Position numbers and translations under genes: made by a program | Shown here: positions 35,765 through 59,261 of the stretch, in pieces | How the letters are laid out: the number at the start of each line of letters is the position of its first letter | Numbering within the stretch: position 1 is the stretch's first letter | Notes under the pieces: model-generated | What the model was told of the DNA's origin: nothing | Database searches by the model: none | The model's input: only the letters and a program-made list of their open reading frames with translations | DNA from: a virus | Length of the DNA: 64,000 bases | IMG/VR virus record: IMGVR_UViG_3300024520_000050 | Span: 114,401 to 178,400 of that record | Reading direction: 5' to 3' (one strand)

Positions 35765-35837
35765 TCGCAGGAGAGAGACTCGAACTCTCGATTTTCGGCT
35801 TATGAAACCGGCGATTTAACCACTAATCTATCCTGCA
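35765..35837 (-). tRNA. tRNA-Met (anticodon CAT)
   Basis: 73 nt cloverleaf with D arm GATT/AATC, anticodon loop TTCATAA and T arm GAGAG/CTCTC around TTCGAGT. The first acceptor pair is U1:G72, a wobble rather than Watson-Crick pair. Anticodon stem has a 27:43 C:A mismatch. CCA is not encoded. Could instead be an Ile2 tRNA if the C34 is lysidylated. Confidence 0.85.
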
Positions 35838-35843
35838 AGATCC

Positions 35844-35923
35844 GTAAATAAGGAGAGTTTTAATAGAAACAACTATGGTGTGTTCCGCACTGTGCTCACC
35901 TTCTCAGGGTAATACTTATTTAC
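35844..35923 (-). ncRNA. Stem-closed 80-nt element between tRNAs (E1)
   Basis: A 9-bp perfect stem GTAAATAAG/CTTATTTAC encloses an ~62-nt interior with smaller hairpins (for example GCACAGTGC and GGTG/CACC). No tRNA arms are present. Two other elements in the array (E2, E5) have the same 80-nt span. Candidate small structured RNA of unknown role. The following bases to 36011 hold no gene. Confidence 0.3.
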
Positions 35924-36011
35924 TAGCTTAATTTATACCTCTAAGCGGACTATTGTACTTATTACTTAGACTTTTAGTTTAAACAAATCTCCTTTGATAA
36001 ATTAAACTTTG

Positions 36012-36087
36012 TCGTAAAGGTTGGACTCAAACCAACAATCTCATCCATTATGTTGAGGATGTGCCTTTTCCAGCAGACTACTTTACA
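36012..36087 (-). tRNA. tRNA of unassigned anticodon with 10-nt anticodon loop
   Basis: Acceptor (U1:G72 wobble, six Watson-Crick pairs), D arm GTCT/AGGC with GG loop, T arm GTTGG/CCAAC with TTTGAGT. The anticodon stem CATCC/GGATG closes a 10-nt loop TCAACATAAT instead of 7 nt, so the anticodon cannot be read with confidence. Either a degenerate tRNA, an expanded-loop decoder, or a loop carrying a 3-nt insertion. Confidence 0.6.
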
Positions 36088-36094
36088 ATTTCAG

Positions 36095-36168
36095 GGTGCT
36101 CATTGAGAATTGAACTCAAATTTCATGAACCACAATCATGTGTCCTAGCCATTTGGACGATGAGTACC
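36095..36168 (-). tRNA. tRNA-His (anticodon GTG)
   Basis: Full cloverleaf with anticodon stem CATGA/TCATG and loop TTGTGGT; T arm TTGAG/CTCAA. The extra 5' G (position -1, base 36168) opposite C73 that marks tRNA-His is encoded. The acceptor contains an A3:C70 mismatch. The phage also encodes a Thg1 family enzyme (37854-38702), whose substrate is tRNA-His. Confidence 0.85.
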
Positions 36169-36188
36169 ATTTAAACTTTTGTATTATA

Positions 36189-36911
36189 TTATAATTTAGA
36201 ATTTAATCCTAAAGTTTTTATCCATTTTCTAATTGCATTGTCAGAAACATTATATAGTTTACCAGTTTTAACATAACCAAGTGCTTTAATTTGATTAATT
36301 AATGTTATTGGATCAGGCAAGCTTTTAATGTACTCTTGTCTTTTAAACGTCACACTACAGGGTTTGCATCTTCTTGATGATCTATAAATTTCTATATTGC
36401 AATCTATACATCCCCTAGTGATCTTTTTAATCTTCTTTTTGATTTTTGTATTCTTATGATTTTTACCACAGTAACTATCAGTTTGAGCATGACAATTAGC
36501 GCAAAGTATTTGAAGATTCTCTATTCGATTATCATTATTAACTCCATTAATATGATGTAATTCTAAAGGAGCTGGTTTTCCAAACCACTCACTTAAATTA
36601 CAGTTTTCGCATTGTTTTTGTTTGAAATCTTCTTTAAACAATCTCCTTTTTAAATTTGTTCTAGAACAAGTACTATTTTTAACAAGATATACTTCTATTG
36701 GCTTCTTAATAGAGTTAGTGTTCGTGCCTCCCTTATTCCAACTTTGACCTTTAAAATGAGAAGTATTTAAACTATGTTCTTTAATTTTGTTATGAATTAG
36801 CTCATAACTACTTCCACTGAGTGTCATTCCTAATATCCTACACACTTGAGCAAGTGATATACTATTACTAATTGCGTTTTCAATTTCTTTTTTTGTAAAT
36901 TTATATTTCAT
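36189..36911 (-). CDS. HNH homing endonuclease with extra zinc finger
   Basis: 240 residues. The HNH core shows zinc cysteines in QCENCNLSEW and ILCANCHAQ and the catalytic LELHHINGVNNDNRIENLQ. A further C-terminal pair of CxxC motifs (RGCIDC, RRCKPC) and a helix-turn-helix ending KLYNVSDNAIRKW complete it. It stands alone in the tRNA array, flanked by tRNA-His and a terminator, typical of a mobile free-standing gene. Confidence 0.9.
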   Translation of the reverse strand: MKYKFTKKEIENAISNSISLAQVCRILGMTLSGSSYELIHNKIKEHSLNTSHFKGQSWNKGGTNTNSIKKPIEVYLVKNSTCSRTNLKRRLFKEDFKQKQCENCNLSEWFGKPAPLELHHINGVNNDNRIENLQILCANCHAQTDSYCGKNHKNTKIKKKIKKITRGCIDCNIEIYRSSRRCKPCSVTFKRQEYIKSLPDPITLINQIKALGYVKTGKLYNVSDNAIRKWIKTLGLNSKL

Positions 36912-36936
36912 AATTACAAATATAATGAATATAAAT

Positions 36937-36984
36937 TAAAAAGGTAGAGTAATGAATACAAACTTGCAATCAACTCTACCTTTT
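36937..36984 (-). terminator. Rho-independent terminator
   Basis: Minus-strand stem AAAAGGTAGAGT/ACTCTACCTTTTT with a ~20-base loop, directly after the tRNA at 36986-37059. Confidence 0.75.
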
Positions 36985-36985
36985 G

Positions 36986-37059
36986 TATCTCTAGTAAGAT
37001 TCGAACTTACACTGAATATGGTCTAAACATATTGCCTCTACCAATTGGGCTATAGAGAT
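36986..37059 (-). tRNA. tRNA with UAG anticodon (CUA codon), short variable arm
   Basis: Acceptor ATCTCTA/TAGAGAT is perfect, T arm GTAAG/CTTAC is canonical, anticodon stem ATATG/CATAT closes TTTAGAC, giving anticodon TAG and A37. That anticodon belongs to leucine, but the variable region (TCAGT) is only five bases while leucine tRNAs have a long arm, as the tRNA-Leu(UAA) in this same array does. Amino-acid identity is therefore uncertain. Confidence 0.8.
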
Positions 37060-37077
37060 ATTCCTACCATTATAAGA

Positions 37078-37485
37078 TTACTTATCTTCTATGTCAAGTG
37101 AATAAATACCACTTAATTTATTTGGATCTAATGTCCAATTAGTACTAACTGATGTACTATTCATTATAGCTTTGCCATCTGTAATGTCATGAGAAACAAG
37201 ATTATCGCTACTATTAATAATATGAGTAGCTGGACTTCCAAAATTAAAATCACTATAATCATTACCATAATTAGTATAACCTGGAGAACCATACCACCAT
37301 CTATCCCAATTATGTGGAACATAAAATGGTCGTGTCCAATTAACTTTTTTAATCTTTGTATTAGGTAATAATTCCCAATCTTTCCAATCTGGTAGAATGC
37401 GTTTTATAGTTTTAATAAACATTGCTAAATTGCAAGCTTCGGGTAATAAGATTGTATTATTATCATAATCTAATTGTATTTTCAT
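37078..37485 (-). CDS. Unknown protein (135 aa)
   Basis: 135 residues, rich in Tyr, Trp, Asn and Gly in the middle (WDRWWYGSPGYTNYG), no motif recognised. Between two tRNA genes. Confidence 0.5.
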   Translation of the reverse strand: MKIQLDYDNNTILLPEACNLAMFIKTIKRILPDWKDWELLPNTKIKKVNWTRPFYVPHNWDRWWYGSPGYTNYGNDYSDFNFGSPATHIINSSDNLVSHDITDGKAIMNSTSVSTNWTLDPNKLSGIYSLDIEDK

Positions 37486-37506
37486 TTGTTAGTTGTTAGG
37501 TATTAA

Positions 37507-37586
37507 AATGATTGTAGACCGGTGACACTTGGTTAAAACTTTAGTAAGTCTGTGGGCGGTATTATTCCCATCTTATAACAATCATT
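37507..37586 (-). ncRNA. Stem-closed 80-nt element between tRNAs (E2)
   Basis: A 9-bp stem AATGATTGT/ACAATCATT encloses an interior with inner pairings ACCG/CGGT and ACTT/AAGT. Same 80-nt span as E1 and E5. No known RNA family recognised. Confidence 0.3.
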
Positions 37587-37604
37587 GTATTTTAATTATA
37601 TTAG

Positions 37605-37677
37605 AGCCTCCGGAGGAATTTGAATCCACAACTTTTACCTTACAAGGGTAACGCTCTACCAGTTGAGCTACGGAGGC
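37605..37677 (-). tRNA. tRNA-Thr (anticodon TGT)
   Basis: Perfect acceptor GCCTCCG/CGGAGGC, D arm GCTC/GAGC, anticodon stem TTACC/GGTAA with loop CTTGTAA, T arm with one mismatch (GTGGA/TCCTC). Discriminator U73. 73 nt. Confidence 0.9.
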
Positions 37678-37728
37678 TTTTATTATTAAGTTTAAAAAAG
37701 GGATAAACTCCCCACAACTCTTTTTTAT

Positions 37729-37798
37729 ATGTCTTGTTGTAAACAAGTGCAGACATCTCATACTTCGTGCAAAACGCTTCGCTTTAAAGATAAGACAT
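37729..37798 (-). ncRNA. Stem-closed 70-nt element between tRNA-Thr and Thg1 (E3)
   Basis: A 7-bp stem ATGTCTT/AAGACAT encloses small hairpins (GCGAAGC and TTGTTTACAA). Size and closing stem are tRNA-like, but no D, anticodon or T arm is evident. On the minus strand it is followed by a second hairpin (AAAAAAG/CTTTTTT around GGGGAGTTTATCCC, ~37692-37727) that may be a terminator. Confidence 0.3.
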
Positions 37799-37853
37799 AA
37801 AATTAAGTAACATGTAACAAAAACTTTATTAGTCTTTATTACATGTTTGTATA

Positions 37854-38702
37854 TTATAGTAATGAATTAATGATCTCTGATCTAGAAAATATAGGAGTTT
37901 CCACAACTTCCCACTTACTTCTAATTTTTACTACATCCTTAAAGTACACAGTTGTAGGATTAACTTGCCAATCTCCATTCTCTAATTGAAAAGCTTCATT
38001 ATTCACCTTATCATCCACATATTGATTCTTTACAATCAAACTACCTCTCTTCTTAGAAAAATGCAAGTCATTCCAATTATGTCCTTTCTGAAAACACATT
38101 TCTTGCATATCAGAACCATTCTTTAAATGTAATTCTTTATGTGAATATAATGATTGTGCTAACATAGCAATACTGTTCTTCTCTGCATCACGTTGACGTG
38201 CTACAAAATAGTTATTTATATCACTTTGTGGTATTGAAAATGCACGTGAATCGAAGTTCGCTAATTTTGGTAAATATGTTTGTTGAACTAATGAAGTTTG
38301 AAGTTCAATGATTTCTGGTTCTTCAGCAAAGCATTTTAAAAACCTCAACTGATTAAATATACCAGTAGCTAAACTAGCACTTACACTAGTCATCTTCTGA
38401 ACATTATAATTAAACCATGCTTCAGTAGTTAACTTATCATAATCAGTAATTAAAATACTAATTTCATCTGATTGTGTATAAGCAGCTTTAGCTCCTTGAA
38501 TGTTTTCACATAAATAAATAGCGGTTTTCTGCATATCTTCAATTAAACCCTCATCAAAAGGTTTATTTAATCCTTTAGTATAAGAACTAAATTTTTTTCC
38601 ATCAATACGACAGATAACTGGAACATGTCTAGATAAATAATAACGATTTCTATTTTCGTAATATTCTTTCATTCTAGTCATTATAGGGCATTTTCTACTC
38701 AT
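37854..38702 (-). CDS. Thg1-family tRNA-His guanylyltransferase / 3'-5' polymerase
   Basis: 282 residues. Family motifs are RIDGKKFSS (32-40) with the metal-binding Asp, KPFDEGL (47-53) and QSDEISIL (77-84). These enzymes add G-1 to tRNA-His, and Thg1-like proteins rebuild damaged 5' ends in the 3'-5' direction on a template strand. The first 15 codons exist in a second, diverged copy at 39725-39775 beyond the homing endonuclease gene, showing that an insertion rebuilt the start of this gene. Confidence 0.9.
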   Translation of the reverse strand: MSRKCPIMTRMKEYYENRNRYYLSRHVPVICRIDGKKFSSYTKGLNKPFDEGLIEDMQKTAIYLCENIQGAKAAYTQSDEISILITDYDKLTTEAWFNYNVQKMTSVSASLATGIFNQLRFLKCFAEEPEIIELQTSLVQQTYLPKLANFDSRAFSIPQSDINNYFVARQRDAEKNSIAMLAQSLYSHKELHLKNGSDMQEMCFQKGHNWNDLHFSKKRGSLIVKNQYVDDKVNNEAFQLENGDWQVNPTTVYFKDVVKIRSKWEVVETPIFSRSEIINSLL

Positions 38703-38707
38703 AATAA

Positions 38708-39643
38708 TTATTTTTTAAATTTCCAAATAAAATTTTTATATTTCTTTCTTTCTCCTCTACAACATTTTGATATTGCAGATGCATTAAAATTTAACTGTTT
38801 CTTAATTTCTTGTCCACTGTTCCATGTTTTTATTAAATTATTATTAAGATCGTACTGACATATTACTTTCTTCATATCCTTCGGAATGTATAAATTTGAT
38901 TTCCTTAGATGATTCTTAATAGAATTTATAGCAACATTATATTTTTTAAATAATGCATATGCAGATTCCCCATTAACATAGTCTTGTTGTATTATTGTAA
39001 ATAATTTTTCAGATGTAAATACAGGTTGCTTATTTATATAAGGTGAATAATCCCATTTATACGCATAACAACTTGGATAATTATTTCCAATATATTCTAA
39101 AAATGTTTTAGATTCTCTTTTACGTATTCTAATATAAGGTAGATTATTCTCATTATAATTAATTCTAGCTTTGAATTGAATAAGTTGATTACATAAAAAT
39201 TGATTATCATTTACAGTAAAGCAATAAGTTGCTAATTTTATATCTTCACTTCTTTTATTTCTAGAATTTCTTAGTAAACAACCATCCCCAATATACCAAT
39301 ATAAGCAATGTATTTTATTTAATACTAGACATAATGGTATTATTTTTATTCTATTAATATACCACAAGTGGTATATTTTTGTAAATTCAGGAAGAGATCT
39401 TGTTCGGAATACATAACTAGTGTAAGTTTTATTAGTTCTTTTATCGTACACTTTTCTTTTTAAAGGTCCAAGTTCATATACTGTTCCTTTTGCAAATTCT
39501 AAAAAATTAGAACTAACAAATTCACAATGTTCTTTTTGAGATGAAGTGTAAGAAAAGTATGCATTTTTAGCTTTCTTAGCTTTGATAATACAACCATCTC
39601 CCAATAAACATCCTTCTAGTATCTCTTTTTGTTTTTGATTCAT
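38708..39643 (-). CDS. LAGLIDADG homing endonuclease inserted at the 5' end of thg1
   Basis: 311 residues with LEGCLLGDGC near the N-terminus and LYWYIGDGCL as second motif, then a C-terminal NUMOD1-type DNA-binding module (YDLNNNLIKTW ... AISKCCRGERKKYKN). The gene fills the gap between the original Thg1 start region (39725-39775) and the intact Thg1 frame. It would cut thg1 alleles lacking the insertion. Confidence 0.9.
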   Translation of the reverse strand: MNQKQKEILEGCLLGDGCIIKAKKAKNAYFSYTSSQKEHCEFVSSNFLEFAKGTVYELGPLKRKVYDKRTNKTYTSYVFRTRSLPEFTKIYHLWYINRIKIIPLCLVLNKIHCLYWYIGDGCLLRNSRNKRSEDIKLATYCFTVNDNQFLCNQLIQFKARINYNENNLPYIRIRKRESKTFLEYIGNNYPSCYAYKWDYSPYINKQPVFTSEKLFTIIQQDYVNGESAYALFKKYNVAINSIKNHLRKSNLYIPKDMKKVICQYDLNNNLIKTWNSGQEIKKQLNFNASAISKCCRGERKKYKNFIWKFKK

Positions 39644-39724
39644 TTTAATATGTATAATTAGTATAGTATGAATGACTTTCCATAAATATACACATTATAT
39701 ATTAATTATACGAATCAAACAATA

Positions 39725-39775
39725 TTAATCATAGTTCTCTTTCATGCGTTGCATGATTGGACAATTCTTACTCAT
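39725..39775 (-). pseudogene. Remnant of the original thg1 5' end
   Basis: A 16-codon frame MSKNCPIMQRMKENYD and stop parallels the real Thg1 start MSRKCPIMTRMKEYYE, with many silent or near-silent nucleotide changes between the two. Its ATG overlaps the stop of the upstream gene (ATGAGTAA), the coupling expected for the ancestral thg1. It was cut off from the rest of the gene by the endonuclease insertion. Confidence 0.75.
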
Positions 39776-40658
39776 GATTTATTGATTTAAAATATTCACT
39801 AATCGTATAATCATTCCAGTTATACTTTTCTTTACTTCTACTTGATCTACTAAATGTTTGTTCTACAGCATTAATATAAAATGAATGTTCTCCTTGATAG
39901 AATTTATTCCAATTATCATCAGAAAATAATCTACGTAGCTTTAGTTGTTCTAATGCTAAGTTATCAAAACTAGTAATATCAAATGTTTTAATGCAGTGAT
40001 TTATCCACCACTTCCATTGTTGATGATTTAAACTATCAATGTCTACTTGTCCGGTATTGGCGCCGAAGTCTTTTTCTCCGAGTATGAGTAACTTTTTTAC
40101 TCCTTTGTTGTGTAATTCAATTACATCATTGATAGTATCAATGCCCATAATTACATGAAATACAGTGTTCTCATAGTTAAGTATTTCATTAGGTACATTC
40201 CAAGTTAAACTACTACGATATGATATACCTAATCCTTTGATTAAATCCATATCGATACATTTTAATATGTCAAATATATCACGTTTAATATGACCTTGAT
40301 TAACTGTAAGATTGCATATGAAACCTTTAATTTTACACCAAAATAAAAAGAACATTAAATTATGAGTTAATTTATTACATCCAATAGCTAATTCAATACC
40401 TGGTGGAATACCCTTTAATTTAGCTTTCAACGCAGTGTAATCACATTCTAATCCATTCACCTTAGCCGACTCATGACAGAAGCTACATAGCACATAGGAA
40501 CCGTTATCTCGTTGCCCAAATGAACATTGATTAGATACTCGTATGTCGATATTTAAAGGATGATCTAATTTCATAGAACCTTCAAATTCTATAATTCGTG
40601 TACCAACATTATCAATTGTAATAGAACAATTTCCATTATTATATTTAACTAATTGCAT
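39768..40658 (-). CDS. Radical-SAM-like enzyme
   Basis: 296 residues. Three cysteines C45, C58 and C61 (SNQCSFG, VLCSFCHE) could ligate a 4Fe-4S cluster; the first spacing is wider than the canonical CxxxCxxC. The block ELAIGCNKLTHNL further on recalls the AIGGGNP region of small radical SAM proteins. It is immediately upstream of thg1 and the tRNA array, so a tRNA-modifying role is an attractive but unproven idea. Confidence 0.5.
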   Translation of the reverse strand: MQLVKYNNGNCSITIDNVGTRIIEFEGSMKLDHPLNIDIRVSNQCSFGQRDNGSYVLCSFCHESAKVNGLECDYTALKAKLKGIPPGIELAIGCNKLTHNLMFFLFWCKIKGFICNLTVNQGHIKRDIFDILKCIDMDLIKGLGISYRSSLTWNVPNEILNYENTVFHVIMGIDTINDVIELHNKGVKKLLILGEKDFGANTGQVDIDSLNHQQWKWWINHCIKTFDITSFDNLALEQLKLRRLFSDDNWNKFYQGEHSFYINAVEQTFSRSSRSKEKYNWNDYTISEYFKSINHE

Positions 40659-40668
40659 AGTTTAAAGT

Positions 40669-41588: not shown

Positions 41589-41634
41589 ATTGTTTTAGTT
41601 TAATTAGTTATATATAACTTGTTGATAATCAAGT

Positions 41635-41938
41635 ACATCTGGAGGGACTCGAACCCTCACGGCCATTACGGCCAATGGATTTTCATACCACTATAGCTTT
41701 CACTACCAATTTAATGTTTTGTGGTCTGGACTATACCTCAATCTTATTAATGATTAATCATTAACTTAGACTACTCCCGTCTAGTCTCTACACCTTCAAT
41801 ATCTAATGATAAAGCTTGGCTCGGTATTGCCATTTAACAGGTTTCACCGAATTTGAGAGTATGCGCAATATTAAATTTCTTTAATAAGGCTCAAATTATC
41901 CATAAGTCCATCGCGTCTACCAGTTCCGCCACAGATGC
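41635..41938 (-). tRNA. tRNA-Leu (anticodon TAA) interrupted by a group I intron
   Basis: Exon 1 (41904-41938) ends GGACTT and exon 2 (41635-41683) starts AAAATCC; joined they give anticodon stem ATGGA/TCCAT with loop CTTAAAA. The long variable arm GGCCGTAATGGCC and T arm GAGGG/CCCTC are canonical leucine features. G1:U72 is a wobble. The intron lies between U34 and A35, precisely the position of the cyanobacterial and plastid tRNA-Leu(UAA) intron. Confidence 0.9.
41684..41903 (-). mobile_element. Group I intron in tRNA-Leu(UAA), 220 nt, no ORF
   Basis: The four conserved group I core segments occur in order on the minus strand: AATTCGGTGAAACC (P), AATACCGAGCCAAGC (Q), GGTGTAGAGACTAGACGG (R) and AAGATTGAGGTATAGTCC (S). 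P and Q pair through CGGT/ACCG. The internal guide TTTGAGCC precedes them. Wording matches the tRNA-Leu(UAA) intron of cyanobacteria and chloroplasts. It should self-splice without a protein. Confidence 0.92.
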
Positions 41939-43041: not shown

Positions 43042-43335
43042 TTAAAATTCTGTAAATTGACAATGACCGTAGTAACCAAATATTTTATTAATTACATCAC
43101 ATTCATTCTCATTAATTTCTGTAATCCTAATATCTCTTAGTAACTCTTTACCATTTTCATATTCTACTTCTTCATTAGTACCAACACTAAATTCAAATGA
43201 TTCTTCATGTTTTTCTAATCTATTCTTATATTGAATCCAGTTCTCTTCATTCATTGTTGTAAAACCTATAAAATCTGCTTCATCTGCCCAATTACCTTCC
43301 CATTTAACTAGGAAGTATTTCTCTTCTTTACTCAT
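43042..43335 (-). CDS. Unknown acidic protein (97 aa)
   Basis: 97 residues, Glu/Asn/Trp-rich, no motif. Overlaps the IF-3 gene start by four bases, so it is co-translated with it. Confidence 0.5.
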   Translation of the reverse strand: MSKEEKYFLVKWEGNWADEADFIGFTTMNEENWIQYKNRLEKHEESFEFSVGTNEEVEYENGKELLRDIRITEINENECDVINKIFGYYGHCQFTEF

Positions 43336-43862
43336 TTCTTCTTTTTCTTTTTACCTATTATAATAGCAGTCCATGTGTTTCCACCTAATTTAGGAAATGA
43401 TGTGAATTCTGCTTGCCAAGTTAAATCTTGTTCATTAATACTATTAACAAATGATTTAATAATACCTGCTCCAGTTTCTTTACCTCTAGCCATATTACGT
43501 CCACCTTTGATTAATAAACTAATCTTTACTTGATTCTTCTTGTCAATAAACTTAGTTGCATTTTTAACTCGATAACTTATATCATTATCACTTATGTCTA
43601 AACCTAATTGAATTGTTTTCAATTTAGTTTTTGATTTAGGTTTGTTATCTTTCTGTCGCTTTTTAGCTTCAAACTTCTTCTTTTTGATGTCATAAATTTT
43701 GCAAATCGGCATATCTAGATCACCATTCATAAGAACTAAATCTAAATTTCTTTCTTTTGCATAATTCAACGCATATTGTGAACCACAAGGTTCAGTAAAA
43801 TCAAGTGTATCCACAATTAGGACCATATGATATAATTGTACTACTTCTTCGTTAATCTTCAA
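43332..43862 (-). CDS. infC: Translation initiation factor IF-3 homologue
   Basis: 176 residues, near the bacterial length. Family landmarks are ALNYAKERNLDLVLMN, PICKIYD, KLKTIQLGLDISDND and KISLLIKGGRNMARGKET, matching the N-domain, linker and C-domain of IF-3. IF-3 binds the 30S subunit, blocks 50S joining and checks initiator tRNA. A phage copy could bias host ribosomes toward phage mRNAs that lack Shine-Dalgarno sites. The Lys-rich C-terminal tail (GKKKKKK) is unusual. Confidence 0.88.
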   Translation of the reverse strand: MKINEEVVQLYHMVLIVDTLDFTEPCGSQYALNYAKERNLDLVLMNGDLDMPICKIYDIKKKKFEAKKRQKDNKPKSKTKLKTIQLGLDISDNDISYRVKNATKFIDKKNQVKISLLIKGGRNMARGKETGAGIIKSFVNSINEQDLTWQAEFTSFPKLGGNTWTAIIIGKKKKKK

Positions 43863-44847: not shown

Positions 44848-44855
44848 TATTAAAG

Positions 44856-44939
44856 AGTACATAATCGGATTCGAACCGACGTGAGCTATTAACTAATGGT
44901 TTTGCAGACCATCCTATTCGGCCACTCTAGCATATGTAC
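44856..44939 (-). tRNA. tRNA-Cys (anticodon GCA) with a long variable arm
   Basis: Perfect acceptor GTACATA/TATGTAC with U73, the Cys discriminator; anticodon stem ATGGT/ACCAT with loop CTGCAAA. The variable region is about 15 nt, making it class II, whereas ordinary tRNA-Cys is class I. The body resembles the adjacent serine tRNAs, suggesting origin from one. Confidence 0.85.
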
Positions 44940-45494: not shown

Positions 45495-45568
45495 CCGTCC
45501 ATGAGAGACTCGAACTCTCGATCCCCGCCGTGACAGGGCGGTATCCACTCCATCTGGACCGATGGACG
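45495..45568 (-). tRNA. tRNA-Asp (anticodon GTC)
   Basis: Acceptor CGTCCAT/ATGGACG, G73 (Asp identity), anticodon stem CCGCC/GGCGG with loop CTGTCAC, T arm GAGAG/CTCTC. Positions 8-9 are CG instead of the usual UA. Confidence 0.88.
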
Positions 45569-45571
45569 GTT

Positions 45572-45935
45572 TTATTTTGTTGTATGTAATTTATCCCATT
45601 CTAGTATCTTATCTAATAATTCATCATGTGTTATTGATGATTTCTTATTCTTACTAATGTTATCAGTATGAATCATTAATTTACAATTTGCTGGATGAGC
45701 TATATGTTTTGGATCAATCTTATTTTCAAATCCTTGTCTGACAGAGTACATATGATCTCTACTTACTCCTTTAAGATTTGGTTTTTTACTATTTGATGGA
45801 CTATACCATCCATGTTCTTTAATTAATTCAAAATTAAAAGCATCTGGATAATCTTTAAGTCCGAATATAAACTTACAATCTGCTTTATATTGTAAATACT
45901 TATCTTTACCTTTTCTCCGATGTAATATTAAAAAA
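45572..45935 (-). pseudogene. 5'-truncated HNH endonuclease fragment (minus strand)
   Basis: An open minus frame without a start codon encodes the C-terminal part of a phage HNH nuclease: DYPDAFNFELIKEHGWY, KGVSRDHMYSVRQGF, IAHPANCKLMIHTDN, KNKKS. The N-terminal zinc-finger half is missing. It is interrupted at the same point where an opposite-strand HNH fragment begins. Confidence 0.7.
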
Positions 45936-46268
45936 GATATTATTCAATTCCATACTCGTAATGCTTCTAGTGTAAGAAGAGTTGGAACATGTAAAGAGTG
46001 TTTACGAATAAAAAATCTTAAACGTCGTACAGATCTTAAAATAAAAGCAATTAATTATCTAGGTGGTCAATGTCAAGATTGTAATCTTAAATTAAAAGAA
46101 ACTTATATTGAAGTATTTGACTTTCATCATCTTAATCCTAAAACTAAAAAATATGTTTGGGCTCAAATGAAAAAACAATCATGGTTAAATATAACTAAAG
46201 AACTCGATAAATGTGTTTGTTTATGTGCAAATTGTCATAGAATTAGACACGCTAAAGAACATAAATAA
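45925..46268 (+). pseudogene. 5'-truncated HNH endonuclease fragment (plus strand)
   Basis: A plus frame without a start codon encodes a zinc-finger HNH: GTCKECLRIKN, GGQCQDCNLK, FDFHHLNPK, CLCANCHRIRH. It ends at 46266-46268. It is one of only two plus-strand coding segments in the window and abuts the minus fragment head to head, as if an inversion or secondary insertion joined two broken endonuclease genes. Confidence 0.7.
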
Positions 46269-46465
46269 TCGTAAGAACGACCTTTGCTCTTACGATTATA
46301 TTTTTTCTTGTTCTTATGAACTTTTTTAACTGATTTGTACCCATGAGGATTGTCCTCAAGATACACCGTGCGATGAGCATTTCCCAATACTGCATCAATG
46401 TCAATGTTGGATTCAACAGTTATACTGTTTTCTTCCTTTAACTTTTTCTTAGTACTCTTTTTCAT
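46235..46465 (-). CDS. Small basic protein, C-terminus probably altered by insertion
   Basis: 76 residues starting MKKSTKKKLKEENS. The last codons run into the antisense of the plus-strand HNH fragment, so the original stop was probably lost. The codons KKKYNRKSKGRSYDY form an inverted repeat (TAATCGTAAGA/TCTTACGATTA, 46266-46300) that may have been its terminator. Function unknown. Confidence 0.45.
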   Translation of the reverse strand: MKKSTKKKLKEENSITVESNIDIDAVLGNAHRTVYLEDNPHGYKSVKKVHKNKKKYNRKSKGRSYDYLCSLACLIL

Positions 46466-47832: not shown

Positions 47833-47854
47833 TTTGTTTATTTATTTTAGTTAG

Positions 47855-47941
47855 TGATTCAGGCAGGACTCGAACCTGCGAGGTCATGATTGACACTGGG
47901 GTAGAAACCCAGGACGCTATCCATCTACGTTCTACTGAACC
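47855..47941 (-). tRNA. tRNA-Arg (anticodon TCT) with a long variable arm
   Basis: Anticodon stem CTGGG/CCCAG with loop TTTCTAC gives anticodon TCT; T arm GCAGG/CCTGC; A73. The variable region contains a hairpin GTCA/TGAC (about 16 nt), so the tRNA is class II although arginine tRNAs are class I. The D arm is irregular. Identity could have shifted toward a class II synthetase. Confidence 0.8.
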
Positions 47942-48017: not shown

Positions 48018-48528
48018 ATGAATAATTGTAAAAAATTGTAGTAAAGAAACTAAAAATAAGAAATTTTGTTCTAGATCCTGTGCGGCAAGTTATAATAATA
48101 AAATATATATTAAACGTAAAATAACTAAAATTTGTACTGAATGTACAGATACTGTTAGAAACTATAGAAGTACTTTTTGTGAACTTCATTATCAAAAATC
48201 TTTAATTGATAAAAAAGAAGCATTGCTAAATAGAACGTTAGGTTATATCAGAAAAAAACGTAGTCATAATCATAGAGCTAGTTTACATGCTGATATTAGA
48301 GGTCATGCTAGAAGTTATTTTAAAGAATTAACTAAAGCTCCTTGTGCTAATTGTAATTATGATAAGCATGTACAATTATGTCATATAAAAGCAGTTAGTT
48401 CTTTTCCTGATTCTGCTTTAGTAAGAGAAGTTAATCACAAAGATAATATCATTCAATTATGTCCTAATTGCCATTGGGAGTTTGATAAAAGTGATTTGAC
48501 AATAAAAGATATACTATCAAATCACTAA
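48018..48528 (+). CDS. HNH endonuclease (plus strand) with an A6 frameshift near its start
   Basis: About 170 residues: zinc-finger part KFCSRSCAASYNNK and KICTECTDT, then HNH core APCANCNYDKHVQLCHIKA and LCPNCHWEF. The ATG at 48018-48020 opens MNNCKK, but six As at 48030-48035 put the frame out; one A fewer would give CKNCSKET and the intact protein. Either a sequencing or assembly slip, a mutation, or programmed slippage. It is antisense to the surrounding genes and abuts a tRNA 5' half. Confidence 0.75.
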
Positions 48529-48531: not shown

Positions 48532-48563
48532 TTCAACGCTCTATCCTTTTGAGCTACGAAAGC
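48532..48563 (-). tRNA. Orphan tRNA 5' half (acceptor strand, D arm, anticodon stem)
   Basis: Sequence GCTTTCG, TA, D arm GCTC/GAGC and stem TTGAA followed by AAA gives the first 32-34 nt of a tRNA. It stops where the plus-strand HNH gene begins (stop at 48528). No complementary 3' half (needing CGAAAGC) was found in the window, so it is a remnant or a half-gene awaiting a partner elsewhere. Confidence 0.6.
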
Positions 48564-52146: not shown

Positions 52147-52171
52147 TGTATGATTGTTTGTTTATAAATAG

Positions 52172-52400
52172 TGACTCGGGTAGGATTCGAACCTACGATC
52201 CTCTGATTAATCTTTGGTTAATCTTTTGACTAACCCTTGTGGAAATGACAGGTTTCGAACCTGCATCAATGGTATTTGATTCACAATAGTCAAATTCTTG
52301 CGAATATCAACTGTTCGGGTTTTATTATATTTCCCGAAGCGTCTTCCAATTCCGCCACATTTCCAAAGTCAGATGCTTTAGCCAACTAAGCTACCGAGTC
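52172..52400 (-). tRNA. tRNA-Lys (anticodon TTT) interrupted in its anticodon loop by another tRNA-like gene
   Basis: 5' part (52365-52400): acceptor GACTCGG, D arm GCTT/AAGC, stem TCTGA, then CTTT. 3' part (52172-52209): TAA, stem TCAGA, variable GGATC, T arm GTAGG/CCTAC, acceptor CCGAGTC, A73. Joining restores loop CTTTTAA and a textbook tRNA-Lys. The 155-nt insert (52210-52364) contains a complete tRNA-like unit. A splicing mechanism is not evident. Confidence 0.85.
52240..52364 (-). tRNA. Inner class II tRNA-like gene inside tRNA-Lys
   Basis: Perfect acceptor GGAAATG/CATTTCC with A73, leucine-like D arm GCGGAATTGGAAGACGC, T arm GCAGG/CCTGT with TTCGAAA. The anticodon stem TTCGGG/CCCGAA closes a 13-nt loop AAATATAATAAAA, and the variable region is ~49 nt with two hairpins. 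Both are much larger than normal, so the anticodon cannot be assigned. Confidence 0.7.
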
Positions 52401-52978: not shown

Positions 52979-52990
52979 ATATTAATTTAG

Positions 52991-53086
52991 TTTCGGAAAC
53001 CAGATTCGAACTGATACTTGTCTCATAAATAAACGACTAGTAAACGTTTATCAATTATGAGTGCCTCTCCATTGGGCTATTCCGAA
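52991..53086 (-). tRNA. tRNA with a 30-nt anticodon loop containing a 7-bp hairpin
   Basis: Perfect acceptor TTCGGAA/TTCCGAA, A73, D arm GCC/GGC, T arm ATCAG/CTGGT with TTCGAAT. Anticodon stem CTCAT/ATGAG closes 30 nt in which ATAAACG/CGTTTAT form a hairpin. Removing about 23 nt would leave a 7-nt loop beginning AATTG, which would place TTG (Gln) at 34-36 but A instead of U at 33. Probable small intron or insertion; anticodon uncertain. Confidence 0.7.
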
Positions 53087-53127: not shown

Positions 53128-53164
53128 TTTGTGACTAATCGTATTCAATAAGTTTTTGGCTTAA

Positions 53165-53248
53165 AATCATTTGCTCGACCAAAGAGCTTCACGTCCTTTT
53201 ATACTAGTTCTTGAGGACGTGACGGGATTCGAACCCGCTCCTTTGATT
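53165..53248 (-). tRNA. Circularly permuted tRNA (3' half upstream of 5' half)
   Basis: In transcription order: AATCA stem strand, variable AAGGA, T arm GCGGG-TTCGAAT-CCCGT, acceptor CACGTCC and U73 (53214-53248); 17-nt spacer (53197-53213); then acceptor GGACGTG, AA, D arm GCTC/GAGC, AAA and stem TGATT (53165-53196). Acceptor strands pair 7/7 and anticodon stem strands 5/5. The break is in the anticodon loop, so the anticodon is not determined. Confidence 0.75.
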
Positions 53249-53366
53249 ATTGACTTACTGACTTTCGTCGATGAATCTCATACTAAAGCTTGACTCGCAA
53301 CACTAAATGTTAAAATTACTAGTGTGTTAATCTAAGGCTAAAGCTAGAGTCATTTTTATTATTATC
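53249..53366. other. Gene-free leader of the permuted tRNA
   Basis: Minus strand holds a stem TGACTC/GAGTCA enclosing an inner AACAC/GTGTT hairpin (about 53285-53350), then TCAATAA, which is complementary to TTATTGA in the trailer of the permuted tRNA. The leader-trailer complementarity could bring the two ends together. Confidence 0.4.
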
Positions 53367-54442: not shown

Positions 54443-54455
54443 CTTTAATATTTTA

Positions 54456-54617: not shown

Positions 54618-54628
54618 GATCATTTAAT

Positions 54629-54859: not shown

Positions 54860-55148
54860 TTATATTTAATTTAATATATAATTCCTCATAAATAGGCATT
54901 TCACAATCTACAAGATTAACTCCATCTATTTTAGTCCATTGACCTTCGGGTGTTTTAATCCAATTAGTTTCACAACCAAACCATACTACTTCACCATCTT
55001 TCTTCTCTAATCTTTCAATTTGATATGGATTAGCAGCGAATTCTTTTTGATCTGGTTCTCCGTAAGGATATTCACATTCAAATACTTCAGATTTTCTCAT
55101 GGTTTTCATCTTATTCAACTTCTTAGTTTCTAATTGTAGTTCTTCCAT
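54843..55148 (-). CDS. Unknown protein (101 aa)
   Basis: 101 residues, charged helical N-terminus and a Trp/Cys middle part (VVWFGCETNWIKTPEGQW). No family recognised. Confidence 0.5.
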   Translation of the reverse strand: MEELQLETKKLNKMKTMRKSEVFECEYPYGEPDQKEFAANPYQIERLEKKDGEVVWFGCETNWIKTPEGQWTKIDGVNLVDCEMPIYEELYIKLNINESTS

Positions 55149-55171
55149 TTTTGTTTTCTTTAAGTTATTAA

Positions 55172-55726
55172 TTAATCATAGTAACACCTTACAGTAGCAT
55201 ATATTTTCATAAATGTATTAAATATAGCACGTATATTTTCTGCTCCTACAGGATTTGCTGAATGTACTTTTATTTCAGAAGATAAGAATATTTTATTGTC
55301 AATACAATAATCAGTTAACCATTTAGCACAGTCCATACCAGAAGGTTGTAATACTCTATTCTTCCTTTGTTTACGCTTCTTATTTTTATCCTTATCAGCT
55401 ATTATTTCACCTAAATCATGATCAAAAGAAATACGTTCAGGTAATCCTCTTGTTTTAATAATATCAGAGAATTCATCTAAAGTAGTTACAAGAACCCAAT
55501 CTTTTAGTAAATATAATTCACCAAAACCATTGATTTTACGTAAGTATTCAATACTTCTTATAGGATGTCTTTCATCATCTAAGAATAAGTTATAATTTCC
55601 TATATTATCCAGTTCCTTTTCAAAATACTCAATTCTCTTCAAGTATTCAGGTTTACTAGAATGACGACATTCTTTAAGACTTTTAATCTTTTGTTCTAAT
55701 ACATAGATTTCATCCATCATCTTCAA
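55172..55726 (-). CDS. Cyclic-phosphate-processing receiver-like protein (cREC type)
   Basis: 184 residues. After a short helical N-terminus comes NLFLDDERHP (46-55), FDHDLGE (101-107), GMDCAKWLTDYC and VHSANPVGAENI, the full signature of the predicted cyclic-phosphate processing receiver (cREC) domain. This family has been proposed to act on 2',3'-cyclic phosphate RNA ends. Such ends arise when RNA or tRNA is cut by metal-independent ribonucleases, so its place in a tRNA array is suggestive. Confidence 0.75.
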   Translation of the reverse strand: MKMMDEIYVLEQKIKSLKECRHSSKPEYLKRIEYFEKELDNIGNYNLFLDDERHPIRSIEYLRKINGFGELYLLKDWVLVTTLDEFSDIIKTRGLPERISFDHDLGEIIADKDKNKKRKQRKNRVLQPSGMDCAKWLTDYCIDNKIFLSSEIKVHSANPVGAENIRAIFNTFMKIYATVRCYYD

Positions 55727-55955
55727 ATTTAAATTGTTCAGGTATTATTTCTGCTGGAATATGTGTTCCTTGAATAGTCTTTACTAATTCAATCTTTCCA
55801 TCTATAGATTCGTAAATATCTTTCCATATTTCATCTGATTGTGGACGAGGAGGATATTCTAGAGTAACTCCTATACTTCTTCTACGTGAAATTATTTCTA
55901 ACTTTCCGTCAATTAGGTTTATACTTACTATTGTTGGTGCTGGTATTGTATACAT
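55710..55955 (-). CDS. Unknown protein (81 aa)
   Basis: 81 residues, beta-rich, no motif. Overlaps the cREC gene start by 17 bases, so the two are probably co-translated. Confidence 0.5.
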   Translation of the reverse strand: MYTIPAPTIVSINLIDGKLEIISRRRSIGVTLEYPPRPQSDEIWKDIYESIDGKIELVKTIQGTHIPAEIIPEQFKFEDDG

Positions 55956-55981
55956 TTAGTTATTATTTAGTTATTAATTAG

Positions 55982-56054
55982 TCGGGATTGCAGGGCTCGA
56001 ACCTGCGGCTTCTACGTCCCAAACGTAGCACTCTACCAACTGAGCTAAATCCCG
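55982..56054 (-). tRNA. tRNA-Pro (anticodon TGG)
   Basis: Acceptor CGGGATT/AATCCCG with C1:G72 typical of proline, A73, anticodon stem CTACG/CGTAG with loop TTTGGGA. Confidence 0.92.
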
Positions 56055-56076
56055 ATGAGTGTTTCCACTCTATATT

Positions 56077-56754
56077 TTATAAATTATCATTCCAAGTTGC
56101 ACCTGGCCAATAACGTCCTTTATTCGCATTTATCGGTGCCATAATGAATGTTCTACTCTGCATTACACCTGCTATAAAAGTTCTTACATTATACTCATCT
56201 CTCCACCATTTACTTGGGCTTTGATTAAGAAATTCATAACCACTTCGTTCATATTTAATCATCATTGTGGTTTTACCTTCTCCAAATAATAATCCAGAAG
56301 TGTTCTCAGCCCAATTTAATTTAACAATTGGATTAATGATAGTTTTAAATACATCTAAATGAGTGTTATTTCCACCTACTATAAAGCATTGATAACTATT
56401 AAATGCAACATGAGTTGGTGTATCCAAATTATTAATAGTTCCACCTTGACTAATTAAAGTTAAATATCGTTGATGTTCTGCTTGGAAATCAACGGAAACA
56501 GTAAAGTCAATGTAAAAGAATACACTATCAACACCACTTGAATCAATATTCAATGAATTAGCTTGATAGTTAACTATACCTTTTAACTCATGCTCATAAG
56601 TCGTATTATACGGTATATAAACACCTGTGTTAATGTAATAAGCAATACTATCTACAGATGTAGAATTAGTATTATTTGGTTGTATGTCATTCTTTTCACA
56701 TCCAATAGATGTAAATATCACTAAACTTAGTAATAATAAAAATAGATTTTTCAT
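56077..56754 (-). CDS. Lipoprotein of unknown function
   Basis: 225 residues with a signal peptide (NLFLLLLSLVIFTS) and lipobox SIGC, so cleavage and lipidation at Cys19. The mature protein is beta-rich with many Asn, Thr and Tyr. A phage-encoded outer-membrane lipoprotein may block superinfecting phages or alter the host surface. Confidence 0.65.
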   Translation of the reverse strand: MKNLFLLLLSLVIFTSIGCEKNDIQPNNTNSTSVDSIAYYINTGVYIPYNTTYEHELKGIVNYQANSLNIDSSGVDSVFFYIDFTVSVDFQAEHQRYLTLISQGGTINNLDTPTHVAFNSYQCFIVGGNNTHLDVFKTIINPIVKLNWAENTSGLLFGEGKTTMMIKYERSGYEFLNQSPSKWWRDEYNVRTFIAGVMQSRTFIMAPINANKGRYWPGATWNDNL

Positions 56755-56776
56755 TGTTTATAATTTAAATTGATAA

Positions 56777-57010
56777 TTAAAATTGATCTAATACTTCTTT
56801 AACTTCGCACATTCCTCTTTCACCAGTTTCAATATTGTGAAACTTACGTGATGAAATGAAAAAGTCAATTCTAGCACCATCTTGTTTTCTAATGATGCGT
56901 TTGCAATAATCAGTAATCTTTTCCAACATAAAGTCGTCATTATTATTGATTAATTCGATTAGTTCTTTGTTATATTTTTCTCTATTAAGAGCTTTAATTC
57001 TTTTACTCAT
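56777..57010 (-). CDS. Unknown basic protein (77 aa)
   Basis: 77 residues, MSKRIKALNREKYNKELIEL, helical with CKR and MCEVKE cysteines. No family recognised. Confidence 0.5.
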   Translation of the reverse strand: MSKRIKALNREKYNKELIELINNNDDFMLEKITDYCKRIIRKQDGARIDFFISSRKFHNIETGERGMCEVKEVLDQF

Positions 57011-57025
57011 GATAATTAAGTTTTG

Positions 57026-57097
57026 TGGTCCTGGGTAGATTCGAACTACCGACTGCCTGGTTATGAGTCAGATCTTCTACCGCTGAAGTACAGGACC
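57026..57097 (-). tRNA. tRNA-Met or tRNA-Ile2 (anticodon CAT)
   Basis: Perfect acceptor GGTCCTG/CAGGACC, A73, D arm CTTC/GAAG, loop CTCATAA. The anticodon stem TCTGA/CCAGG has an A31:C39 mismatch. A second CAT tRNA in the array suggests that one of the two is the lysidine-modified Ile2 reader of AUA. Confidence 0.85.
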
Positions 57098-57101
57098 ATC
57101 T

Positions 57102-57353
57102 CTATTTCAATTTATGTATCTTATTCATATCAACATTACTATCATTATATTCACTGTTGATTTGTTTCTTTACTATTTCAGCTGATTTCTTATAACCTAA
57201 TAATTGACCATCAACAATAGTTCTTCTCTTTTGAAAATCAATATTGATAGGTTTATTTGTACGCATTCTTTCATTAAACTCTTCGTCTAATATTTCTTTT
57301 TTCTTAGTAAATTCAAGAATCTTAGCTAATATTAATCTTAATATTTCTTTCAT
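57102..57353 (-). CDS. Unknown basic helical protein (83 aa)
   Basis: 83 residues, Lys/Glu/Ile-rich, helical with a KRR in the middle. Similar in outline to 47650-47832 and 54456-54617. Start overlaps the next gene's stop. Confidence 0.45.
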   Translation of the reverse strand: MKEILRLILAKILEFTKKKEILDEEFNERMRTNKPINIDFQKRRTIVDGQLLGYKKSAEIVKKQINSEYNDSNVDMNKIHKLK

Positions 57354-57670
57354 TTTATATATTTTAATGCACTTTCTAATCCTTTTTCGAAAGCTTGTTT
57401 ATATGTTTTATCAATGTTAGTAAGGCTATCCATTTCTCCATCAATATTATATAAATCAACAGTATATCTTTTACCATCTCCTGTTTTAATTGGACTGACA
57501 ATAACATCGAGACCATATTCCGTTCTTAACCAGGTTTGTATATCTGATCTACGATATGTATGAATATTATAACCATTCTTTCCTTTAATCATTCCTGAAA
57601 AAGGTATTGCATGATTTATTAAATCTCTATATTTTTCTGCCAATTCGTATGAAACTACATCATCTTTCAT
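57350..57670 (-). CDS. Unknown protein, tandem family member 1 (106 aa)
   Basis: 106 residues. It shares with the next two genes the pattern IQTWLRTEYGLDVIVSPI (beta strand and WLR) and a C-terminal helix (YKQAFEKGLESALKYIK). Function unknown. Confidence 0.6.
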   Translation of the reverse strand: MKDDVVSYELAEKYRDLINHAIPFSGMIKGKNGYNIHTYRRSDIQTWLRTEYGLDVIVSPIKTGDGKRYTVDLYNIDGEMDSLTNIDKTYKQAFEKGLESALKYIK

Positions 57671-58065
57671 TTTATATATTTAAGTGTCATTTCAAGTGCT
57701 TCTTCCAAAGCTAATTCATAAGTTACATGTGAATCACCAGATATTCTAGTTTGCATTCTATTCTTAATATTCAACTTTTTCATCTTCCAATTGAATAATG
57801 TCATACTACCAGATAATTTATTACGTTGGACTGGATAAACTTCAATATATAATTTATGTTTAGTTCGTATCCAACTTGCTAATTTAGATTGAAGAGGTAA
57901 TGATACAAGAATTGGATGTTTATTTCTATAACCACCAAGTACATATTGACCTTTTTCTTTATTAGCATATCTATTTGTAAATGCTTTTGTATTATAAGCT
58001 ACTTCACATGGCCAATCAAAATCAAGTTCTTTAGCTATTTTCGCTGTCACTATCGTTATTTCCAT
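57667..58065 (-). CDS. Unknown protein, tandem family member 2 (132 aa)
   Basis: 132 residues. Family pattern seen as LASWIRTKHKLYIEVYPV and YELALEEALEMTLKYIK. Four-base overlap with member 1. The three copies have diverged strongly, pointing to an old duplication under selection. Confidence 0.6.
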   Translation of the reverse strand: MEITIVTAKIAKELDFDWPCEVAYNTKAFTNRYANKEKGQYVLGGYRNKHPILVSLPLQSKLASWIRTKHKLYIEVYPVQRNKLSGSMTLFNWKMKKLNIKNRMQTRISGDSHVTYELALEEALEMTLKYIK

Positions 58066-58549
58066 CTTTAAGTTGATTTAATCCATAAATTAATCCTTCT
58101 TCAAAGGCTTCTTCATATGTGTAAGTTAATTTATAATAATCCCATTTCTTTTCAAGTGAACCTAATTCTTTACTAACAAACCAATTATCATCTTTAATAG
58201 TAAATCTTTTACTATCTTTTCCATTTATATACAATATACGTGAATTTAAAATATCAAAATTTAGTAATAATGATATTTCTAATTTTTGACTTCTCAACCA
58301 ATCTTGTAATTCTCCTTGTAATGGGGCAGCTATAAAATCTGCATCTGGATGATGAGAATTATACTTATATTTAATAGCTCTTTTATCATCAGGAAGAACA
58401 TCATAGAAAGTTTCATTTATATCTTCAAAATTGTCAAATAATATTCTTTCTTTATATGCTGATGGATAGTAATATCCTTCTGTAGCTTCATCAAAACCAA
58501 CTTCTTTTGCTAATTTAGCTGTATCATAATTTATTATATCCATTTTCAA
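58031..58549 (-). CDS. Unknown protein, tandem family member 3 (172 aa)
   Basis: 172 residues; LQDWLRSQKLEISLLLNF and YEEAFEEGLIYGLNQLKD match the other two members. Overlaps member 2 by 35 bases. Confidence 0.6.
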   Translation of the reverse strand: MKMDIINYDTAKLAKEVGFDEATEGYYYPSAYKERILFDNFEDINETFYDVLPDDKRAIKYKYNSHHPDADFIAAPLQGELQDWLRSQKLEISLLLNFDILNSRILYINGKDSKRFTIKDDNWFVSKELGSLEKKWDYYKLTYTYEEAFEEGLIYGLNQLKDGNNDSDSENS

Positions 58550-59001
58550 ATAATATTTAATTGTTTTAATACTTTCTTCAATTCACTCTTATTTTTAGGG
58601 TTTCCTTCGAATAATATACTTTGTTCTGTACTATCTAATTCAACTCCTCTATGACCTCTAATGGTAACATAAGGAAAAGAGTGCCATAATCTTAAACTAA
58701 CCATCGTCCAACAAGGTAATTCTCCAGAAACATCAGTTTTCTTAAACCGCCAAACTCCTTCATCTGTAAAGTTAAAACTTTCAATATCTTCTCTATCTAA
58801 GTATTTAACTCTAATCATCTCATTTTCTATGTCTTCTTCAATATGCTCTAAATCATCTATTTTATCTACAGTATAATTATGCCATTCTGTTTCTCCAAAT
58901 TGCGGATGTCTAGGATGAACAATAGCATATTCCAGCTCATATTCAAATCCTACATGAAATTCTTCAATTGTAGGTTCGTAGTATTTAGTTTGCATATTCA
59001 T
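58546..59001 (-). CDS. Unknown protein (151 aa)
   Basis: 151 residues, acidic with a DIESFNFTDEGVWRFKKTD segment; no family recognised. Overlaps its neighbour by four bases. Confidence 0.5.
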   Translation of the reverse strand: MNMQTKYYEPTIEEFHVGFEYELEYAIVHPRHPQFGETEWHNYTVDKIDDLEHIEEDIENEMIRVKYLDREDIESFNFTDEGVWRFKKTDVSGELPCWTMVSLRLWHSFPYVTIRGHRGVELDSTEQSILFEGNPKNKSELKKVLKQLNII

Positions 59002-59158
59002 TTACTTCTTTTGACCAGCAATTATTCTTCTTTCTATCTAGATTCCTTACCTTTATTTCATTTTCAATATCTTCTTTTATAGTAATAAGATTAGTTCCTG
59101 TTACTCTAAAAGAATCATCAATATCATCAATTGTATAGTTAACTTCAAATGTTCTCAT
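58985..59158 (-). CDS. Small protein (57 aa)
   Basis: Start MRTFEVNYTIDD at 59158, end KEVNEYAN at 58985, overlapping the next gene's start by 17 bases. Similar beginning to the 45-residue gene at 3932-4069. Function unknown. Confidence 0.55.
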   Translation of the reverse strand: MRTFEVNYTIDDIDDSFRVTGTNLITIKEDIENEIKVRNLDRKKNNCWSKEVNEYAN

Positions 59159-59188
59159 AATAATTAGTTTAATGTTAATAAAAATATT

Positions 59189-59261
59189 GTTGGCCTACAA
59201 GGACTCGAACCTTGAATGACTACACCAAAAGCAGTTGTGTTACCAATTACACCATAGGCCA
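59189..59261 (-). tRNA. tRNA-Gln (anticodon TTG)
   Basis: Perfect acceptor TGGCCTA/TAGGCCA with U1:A72 typical of Gln, A73, anticodon stem ACTGC/GTAGT with loop TTTTGGT, T arm CAAGG/CCTTG. Confidence 0.92.

Follow-up and report, generated by a model that had tools for sequence, protein, structure and literature searches.

Why should one phage carry so many transfer RNA (tRNA) genes that are altered at the anticodon loop? The question is raised by the tRNA array of a crAss-like phage, which lies in a stretch of 64,000 nucleotides (nt), here called the window, comprising bases 114401–178400 of the 178,400-base virus record IMGVR_UViG_3300024520_000050. A sequence-only reading had picked out six structures in the array, took the anticodon loop for a recurring insertion site and saw in the pattern a system rather than isolated accidents. 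The six structures were largely recovered; a single insertion system was not, and only tRNA-Leu shows a recognisable intron. We suggest that the six cases have separate origins and that most are non-decoding tRNA-like RNAs which would serve as punctuation elements for RNase P and RNase Z, an explanation in which our confidence is about even. The idea of a system survives in a different form, since anticodon-less tRNA-like elements are a recurring class in crAss-like phages. To this class we assign the RNA nested in tRNA-Lys, the RNAs at 52990–53086 and 36012–36088 and, probably, a permuted RNA (positions are those of the window unless given as genome positions):

52990..53086, minus strand: tRNA-like RNA with a 30-nt anticodon loop (Rfam tRNA 33.4 bits; fold; structure print)
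36012..36088, minus strand: tRNA-like RNA with a 10-nt anticodon loop, TCAACATAAT (fold; cloverleaf scan)
52171..52400, minus strand: split tRNA-Lys(UUU), the gene that houses the nested RNA, exon 1 52400–52365, insert 52364–52210, exon 2 52209–52171 (ARAGORN with introns; fold z −4.75)
52240..52364, minus strand: tRNA-like RNA nested in tRNA-Lys (Rfam tRNA 35.4 bits; fold)
53142..53261, minus strand: permuted tRNA-like RNA (YrlA model 29 bits, below the gathering score; fold; shuffle tests)

tRNA-like RNAs with altered anticodon loops

Judged by sequence and fold, the altered-loop RNAs are tRNA-like RNAs that would not decode. At 52990–53086 the stems are intact and the 30-nt loop forms a hairpin that extends the anticodon stem (CTCATAA-TTG-ATAAACG ... 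CGTTTAT-TTATGAG). The RNA with the 10-nt loop, noted earlier at 36012–36087, has complete cloverleaf stems (acceptor 7/7, D 4/4 and T 5/5 pairs); it was called by neither ARAGORN nor Rfam, and its folding z is only −1.5. Every single excision was inspected for both RNAs, and none leaves a loop of 7 nt in which position 33 is U and position 37 a purine. For 52990–53086 the result has U37 or no U33, and the best guess of ARAGORN is Ile(UAU) with U37. The hairpin insert described at 52991–53086 is therefore real as a structure but not as an intron, because no excision restores a normal loop. Neither of these RNAs, nor the Lys insert or the permuted RNA at 53142, contains a group I core detectable by Rfam at gathering or relaxed thresholds.

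The non-decoding elements of the window have 7/7 acceptor pairs and 5/5 T pairs. They retain the features on which recognition by RNase P, RNase Z and the CCA-adding enzyme depends, namely the stacked acceptor/T stem, usually the D arm, and an N-C 3′ end; an encoded N73-C74 is also present in most normal tRNAs of the phage. Block-shuffled genomes gave 0–2 strict T arms and 0 acceptor-plus-T-arm pairs, and the tRNA-like structures are therefore not due to chance. Every T arm listed in our scan has an acceptor partner upstream, except that at 53233, whose partner lies downstream; the scan missed Tyr and His at 7/7 (mismatches), and tRNAs with variant T arms (Thr, Asn) are unlisted.

Further tRNA-like elements lie outside the window, at genome positions 7065–7190, 10328–10419 and 24590–24663. 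In the last of these the anticodon arm is closed to a tetraloop (ATGGTT-GGCT-AACCAT). The elements at genome 7095 and 10328 lie 20–40 nt before open reading frames (ORFs) and, like some elements in relatives, have the D arm altered or lost as well; that at 10328–10419 is weak, with altered D and T loops. The impression that it is always the anticodon loop suffers from detection bias, because only elements that retain an acceptor and a T arm are recognisable. Most of the RNAs considered here would be of no use as tRNAs.

Similar elements in other Crassvirales

Among eight phages scanned, the same class of element turned up in Cellulophaga phage phi40:1 as well as in gut Crassvirales. In cr6_1, cr4_1, cr115_1, cr53_1 and cr109_1, 11 of 15 non-decoding T-arm elements lie no more than 45 nt upstream of a same-strand ORF of at least 80 codons. 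The excess is significant in these five genomes, the expected number being 0.04–0.11 per genome (0.03–0.11 when ordinary tRNAs are counted in), under a null of random rather than intergenic positions that makes the P values too small to take literally. The ordinary tRNAs of the five genomes behave likewise (7/10). DNA polymerase is directly downstream of an element in three genomes (cr109_1, cr4_1, cr6_1) and DNA primase in four (cr4_1, cr53_1, cr115_1, cr6_1). We also viewed the primase upstream regions of cr109_1 and nine further genomes, to a total of 14. A filtered element ends 15–22 nt upstream of the primase start codon in eight of these, the weakest being those of cr273_1 and cr125_1, and a variant T-arm motif occupies this position in three more (cr60_1, cr113_1, cr109_1), where that of cr109_1 is also detected by the tRNA model. 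The recurrence upstream of primase, one orthologous gene, is independent of the spacing null.

The interiors of the elements vary from 11 to 108 nt. The primase element of cr6_1 consists of acceptor and T arm alone (45 nt), and the polymerase element of cr109_1 has no anticodon arm (60 nt). Acceptor strands pair specifically with their own partners: 11 of 12 elements reached at least 6/7 pairs, the twelfth having been entered in shortened form, and none of 20000 re-pairings did as well. A literature search of limited journal coverage found no paper on tRNA punctuation in phages or on tRNA-like RNAs of crAss phages.

Some individual elements may be recorded here. One tRNA-like element, in phi40:1 (KC821612.1, 20678–20817), contains a long insert and precedes gp030, whose annotation is intein/RtcB, by 27 nt. 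A nearly identical T-arm element (CTAATGTCGTAGAAAGCTGGAG...) is common to cr115_1 (NC_055898, 42870), cr53_1 (NC_055889, 93012) and cr109_1 (NC_055892, 99011), where it sits 20–37 nt before a small ORF. Tenacibaculum phage Gundel_1 (MT732474.1, 73382–73455) has, inside a tRNA cluster, an annotated tRNA of undetermined anticodon.

The split tRNA-Lys gene

The claim that a second tRNA is nested in tRNA-Lys was confirmed, with the qualification that the nested RNA is not an ordinary tRNA. A 155-nt insert lies inside the anticodon, and the joined exons form a perfect tRNA-Lys(UUU), with all stems perfect and the mature loop CUUUUAA. The first base of the insert is the 5′ end of the nested RNA, which is followed by a hairpin. 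The nested RNA has an intact acceptor and T arm and a type-II-like D arm; it is its 13-nt anticodon loop and an extra hairpin that set it apart from ordinary tRNAs. Partial inspection found no single excision that gives it a decoding loop (7 nt, U33, purine 37).

With its 5′ end at the opening base of the insert, the nested RNA has its RNase P site at the point where exon 1 ends. C(−4) and U(−1) of the leader CUUU favour E. coli RNase P (PMC9433436). A cut by RNase P at this site would yield a 5′ half that ends exactly in the anticodon and carries a 3′-OH, an end that suits ATP-dependent RNA ligases. An Rnl2-like RNA ligase is encoded by the phage, and such an enzyme could rejoin the 5′ half to a trimmed 3′ half. 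tRNA-Lys may mature by processing of the nested tRNA and ligation of the two halves; it is also possible that it is a dead gene. A wider proposal would be that Crassvirales cut polycistronic transcripts at anticodon-less tRNA-like RNAs fixed before DNA primase and polymerase, and that the element inserted in Lys is a new kind of intron, opened by an RNase P cut at its 5′ end and closed by the phage RNA ligase. Taken as a whole, we consider it unlikely.

The permuted RNA

The permutation break that had been placed at 53165–53248 was upheld as a layout. Read from 53261 to 53142, the RNA has a T arm, an acceptor hairpin (8 base pairs, 16-nt loop), a D arm and an outer stem of 9 base pairs that closes the structure. 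An 8-base-pair Watson-Crick complement in the acceptor arose in 3 of 10,000 shuffles (P=3e-4); the outer stem is weak (shuffle P=0.04). Sequence and fold predict a 4 x 11 internal loop between the anticodon-like and outer stems, not a bulge-helix-bulge. Two candidates were discarded. A permuted transfer-messenger RNA was ruled out by the lack of a tag frame of the usual length, a proper D stem and the lack of G3-U70, and a tRNA_int_endo match at genome 27235–27345 was below cut-off (13 bits) and unconfirmed by Pfam.

There is a real, if lesser, possibility that 53142–53261 is a Y RNA of the YrlA type and neither a permuted tRNA nor a processing element. It matches the YrlA model (RF02553) over its full length, outer stem included, and Y RNAs have been reported as tRNA mimics, also in mycobacteriophages (PMC12282133). 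However, its score of 29 bits is far below the gathering score of 69, and the tandem tRNAs of another phage reach 17–19 bits on the same model; the layout therefore explains much of the score. The marginal outer stem argues in the same direction, as does the absence of a Ro60/TROVE gene, no PF05731 match being found in the 178,400 bases of the phage genome.

The tRNA-Leu intron, an orphan half and candidate RNA-repair genes

The remaining structures of the array and the genes that bear on the alternatives are as follows:

41633..41938, minus strand: tRNA-Leu(UAA) with group I intron, exon 1 41938–41904, intron 41903–41684, exon 2 41683–41633 (ARAGORN with introns; Rfam Intron_gpI)
48532..48563, minus strand: orphan 5′ half of an Arg-like tRNA (sequence; CGAAAGC search)
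48022..48528, plus strand: HNH endonuclease frame, antisense, next to the orphan half (translation; Pfam HNH_2 8e-7 on the 3′ part)
38708..39643, minus strand: LAGLIDADG homing endonuclease in the array (Pfam LAGLIDADG_2 89 bits)
36189..36911, minus strand: HNH endonuclease between tRNA-His and tRNA-Leu(UAG) (Pfam HNH 22.5 bits)
37854..38702, minus strand: Thg1-like 3′-5′ polymerase (tRNA-His guanylyltransferase; Pfam Thg1 93 bits; phrog_4717)
55172..55726, minus strand: cREC domain (cyclic-phosphate processing receiver), a candidate RNA-repair enzyme (Pfam PF20274 71.7 bits)

The tRNA-Leu(UAA) gene carries a true group I intron, as had been claimed, with a conserved catalytic core by covariance model (RF00028: 59.1 bits against a gathering score of 50, E=1e-14, full model 1–253). 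The intron, placed by ARAGORN, is 220 nt long, splits U34 from A35 and is predicted to be self-splicing. This position in tRNA-Leu(UAA) is the classical group I intron site of cyanobacteria and plastids.

The orphan half (48563–48532) comprises the acceptor strand GCTTTCG, the D arm and the anticodon stem to about position 31. A search of the window for CGAAAGC turned up no 3′ half that matches exactly, and we therefore regard the half as a remnant and not as the product of an insertion. The antisense HNH frame reported to abut it at 48532 is indeed adjacent, without a start codon at its 5′ end; what fell was the suggestion that it had inserted there. At 45560–46300, between tRNA-Asp and a small ORF, there is a second antisense HNH-like frame (plus strand) together with a nuclease-like minus-strand frame.

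A role of cREC in RNA repair has been proposed (PMC7824862), and the repair-related genes of the phage fit the sets described there, a matter separate from the loop changes. No PNK-type polynucleotide kinase (AAA_33), RtcB or RlaP was found in the phage; HAD phosphatases were not searched for. The gene content suggests that a repair set against anticodon nucleases is incomplete, because the ligase, cREC and Thg1 are present but polynucleotide kinase, RtcB and RlaP were not found.

Weighing the explanations

We favour processing by RNase P and RNase Z because it explains the kept acceptor/T half, the ordinary tRNAs at the same position and the size changes in the anticodon region. The structures, their recurrence and their spacing in relatives are observed; each enzymatic step is inferred: the two enzymes would cut at the tRNA-like elements and so release messenger RNAs or neighbouring tRNAs from a long transcript, and selection would retain the acceptor/T half and let the anticodon arm lengthen, shorten or acquire insertions. 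Several points weigh against this explanation. Similarity of capsid proteins decided which genomes were compared for spacing, and the polymerase cases are ones that the scan itself brought up. Three of the 14 genomes lack a primase element at the expected place (cr10_1, which has a T arm 121 nt from primase, and cr118_1 and crAss001, which have none), and so does the region upstream of this phage's own primase-like gene. In the present phage the elements are not significantly close to ORFs (non-decoding 1/7, P=0.28; decoding 1/18), and the four window elements adjoin other RNA genes, not start codons, so that a role in this phage would be carried over from its relatives. In tRNA-Lys, the fold allows base pairs between exon 1 and the nested RNA's trailer, and E. 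coli RNase P is slowed when a leader is paired to the 3′ end of the tRNA (PMC9433436); no known activity accounts for the second cut, before exon 2. It might be argued that translational operators or other cis-regulators in the shape of tRNAs, and not cleavage sites, stand upstream of DNA primase and polymerase, given their fixed distance from the start codon and their link to replication genes. We think this quite unlikely, since ordinary tRNAs of the same genomes stand at the same distance from ORFs and other genes are also preceded by elements (cr6_1 gp70, cr4_1 gp87, phi40:1 gp030). Simple decay, in which tRNA genes lose their function and the anticodon loop is merely the first part to go, would accommodate the partnerless orphan half and the weak element at genome 10328–10419; we judge it slightly less probable again, because stems remain perfect in diverged sequences, acceptor pairing is specific to each element, and different subfamilies share the position upstream of primase and polymerase.

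The sequence-only reading had itself offered two explanations. Repeated homing, by introns or homing endonucleases that target a conserved anticodon loop and leave the odd RNAs as decayed introns, holds for one case, the Leu intron; the HNH and LAGLIDADG genes of the array and the HNH gene beside the orphan half would also agree with it. No other recognisable intron was found, however: the intron core is absent from the Lys insert and from 52990, 36012 and 53142, and similar anticodon-less elements occur in gut Crassvirales, most without adjoining nuclease genes. As a general account we find homing improbable, to much the same degree as cis-regulation. Camouflage, by which interrupted loops would shield tRNAs from host anticodon nucleases of the PrrC, RloC and VapC types until they are spliced, found no support and is in our view very improbable. 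It is true that tRNA-Lys(UUU), the PrrC target, is among the interrupted genes, that AAA is the commonest codon (63 per 1000), that anticodon-loop changes have been proposed as nuclease evasion by phage tRNAs (PMC10264068), and that RNA ligase, cREC and Thg1 are encoded. But several of the altered RNAs, 36012 and 52990 among them, cannot be brought to a decoding loop by the removal of any stretch, and 48563 is no more than an orphan half. The loops of most tRNAs in the array are ordinary, the spliced Lys and Leu tRNAs would be normal nuclease substrates, and the repair set looks incomplete, as no PNK-type kinase, RtcB or RlaP was found.

If punctuation by RNase P and RNase Z is correct, tRNA-shaped RNAs of phages are not for translation alone, and a widespread order of gut phages would arrange its transcripts via the tRNA-processing enzymes of the host, as mitochondria do. 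This would account for undetermined tRNA calls in phage genomes and would caution against taking such genes for evasive tRNAs or for tRNAs with introns. For splicing by tRNA processing and ligation in bacteria, the Lys gene would become a test case.

The array and its genome

The crAss-like assignment follows from the major capsid protein, which matches those of crAss-like phages at 20–23% identity over up to 89% of its length. Both record ends share an exact overlap of ∼100 bases, and the genome is therefore probably near complete. Its G+C content is 31%. The ARAGORN count is 20 tRNAs without interruption, every one of them encoded on the minus strand, and rises to 23 if introns are permitted. 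Some tRNAs of the window are tightly placed between ORFs; tRNA-Met at 57025 is separated from its two neighbours by 4 and 14 nt. Neither tRNA-Glu nor tRNA-Ala was seen at positions 35764–59261, though GAA (58 per 1000) is among the commonest codons. No phage with the same array was found in IMG/VR with DUF7873, Thg1, TerL, DNA ligase, two Lys-insert patterns, a radical-SAM-like protein or a DUF7873 alignment as queries, nor by a pattern scan of genome contigs; one pattern match proved to be coding DNA. Large-terminase relatives in IMG/VR have 49–100% identity and are short contigs for the most part; the nearest large one stops before the array and has the ligase orthologue elsewhere. A distant phage that bears Thg1 has 21 ordinary tRNAs, none of them interrupted.

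Other observations concern single genes. The tRNA-Cys(GCA) at 44855–44939 and tRNA-Arg(UCT) at 47854–47941 have long, Ser-like variable arms and tRNA-Leu(UAG) at 36985–37059 a short one, shapes by which charging identity and anticodon may disagree. The phage encodes a translation initiation factor IF-3 at 43332–43862 (infC 84 bits; a single similar phage record was found) and, at 28604–29923, a BCS1-like AAA ATPase (BCS1_N plus AAA) of a family mainly known from mitochondria. An AT-rich leader, CTATTTATAA...TTATTAACAATTAAA, recurs 5′ of start codons after RNA elements, e.g. at window 52163–52212 and genome 10288–10330.

Comparison with known systems

With T4-type tRNA repair (Rnl1/PnkP against PrrC) the phage shares an RNA ligase and its richness in tRNAs, and cREC and Thg1 occur as in other phage repair sets (PMC7824862); unlike in T4, the ligase is Rnl2-like and no kinase or phosphatase was found (HAD phosphatases not having been searched for). 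Bacterial YrlA and the RNA at 53261–53142 have in common a T arm, a capped acceptor, a D arm and an outer closing stem, whereas the phage RNA scores below half the gathering score and its phage has no Ro60 gene. Circularly permuted tRNA genes are known from algae and one archaeon (PMC3978253). In these, too, the 3′ half precedes the 5′ half and a short intervening sequence joins the acceptor strands; the phage RNA differs in having no evident bulge-helix-bulge and an undefined anticodon, and no splicing endonuclease was found above cut-off.

The tRNA-Leu(UAA) intron of cyanobacteria and plastids (subgroup IC3) shares with that of the phage the tRNA, the U34/A35 site and the Rfam group I core, a likeness drawn from site and core; the phage version is 220 nt long, without an ORF, and phage-borne. 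Mitochondrial tRNA punctuation is the system that the Crassvirales elements recall. They differ from it in belonging to phage genomes, in that some have no anticodon arm at all, and in that cleavage is only proposed in phages. As in mitochondria, however, tRNAs and tRNA-like elements of Crassvirales lie a few to tens of nt from same-strand ORFs, and it is the acceptor/T half that is kept.

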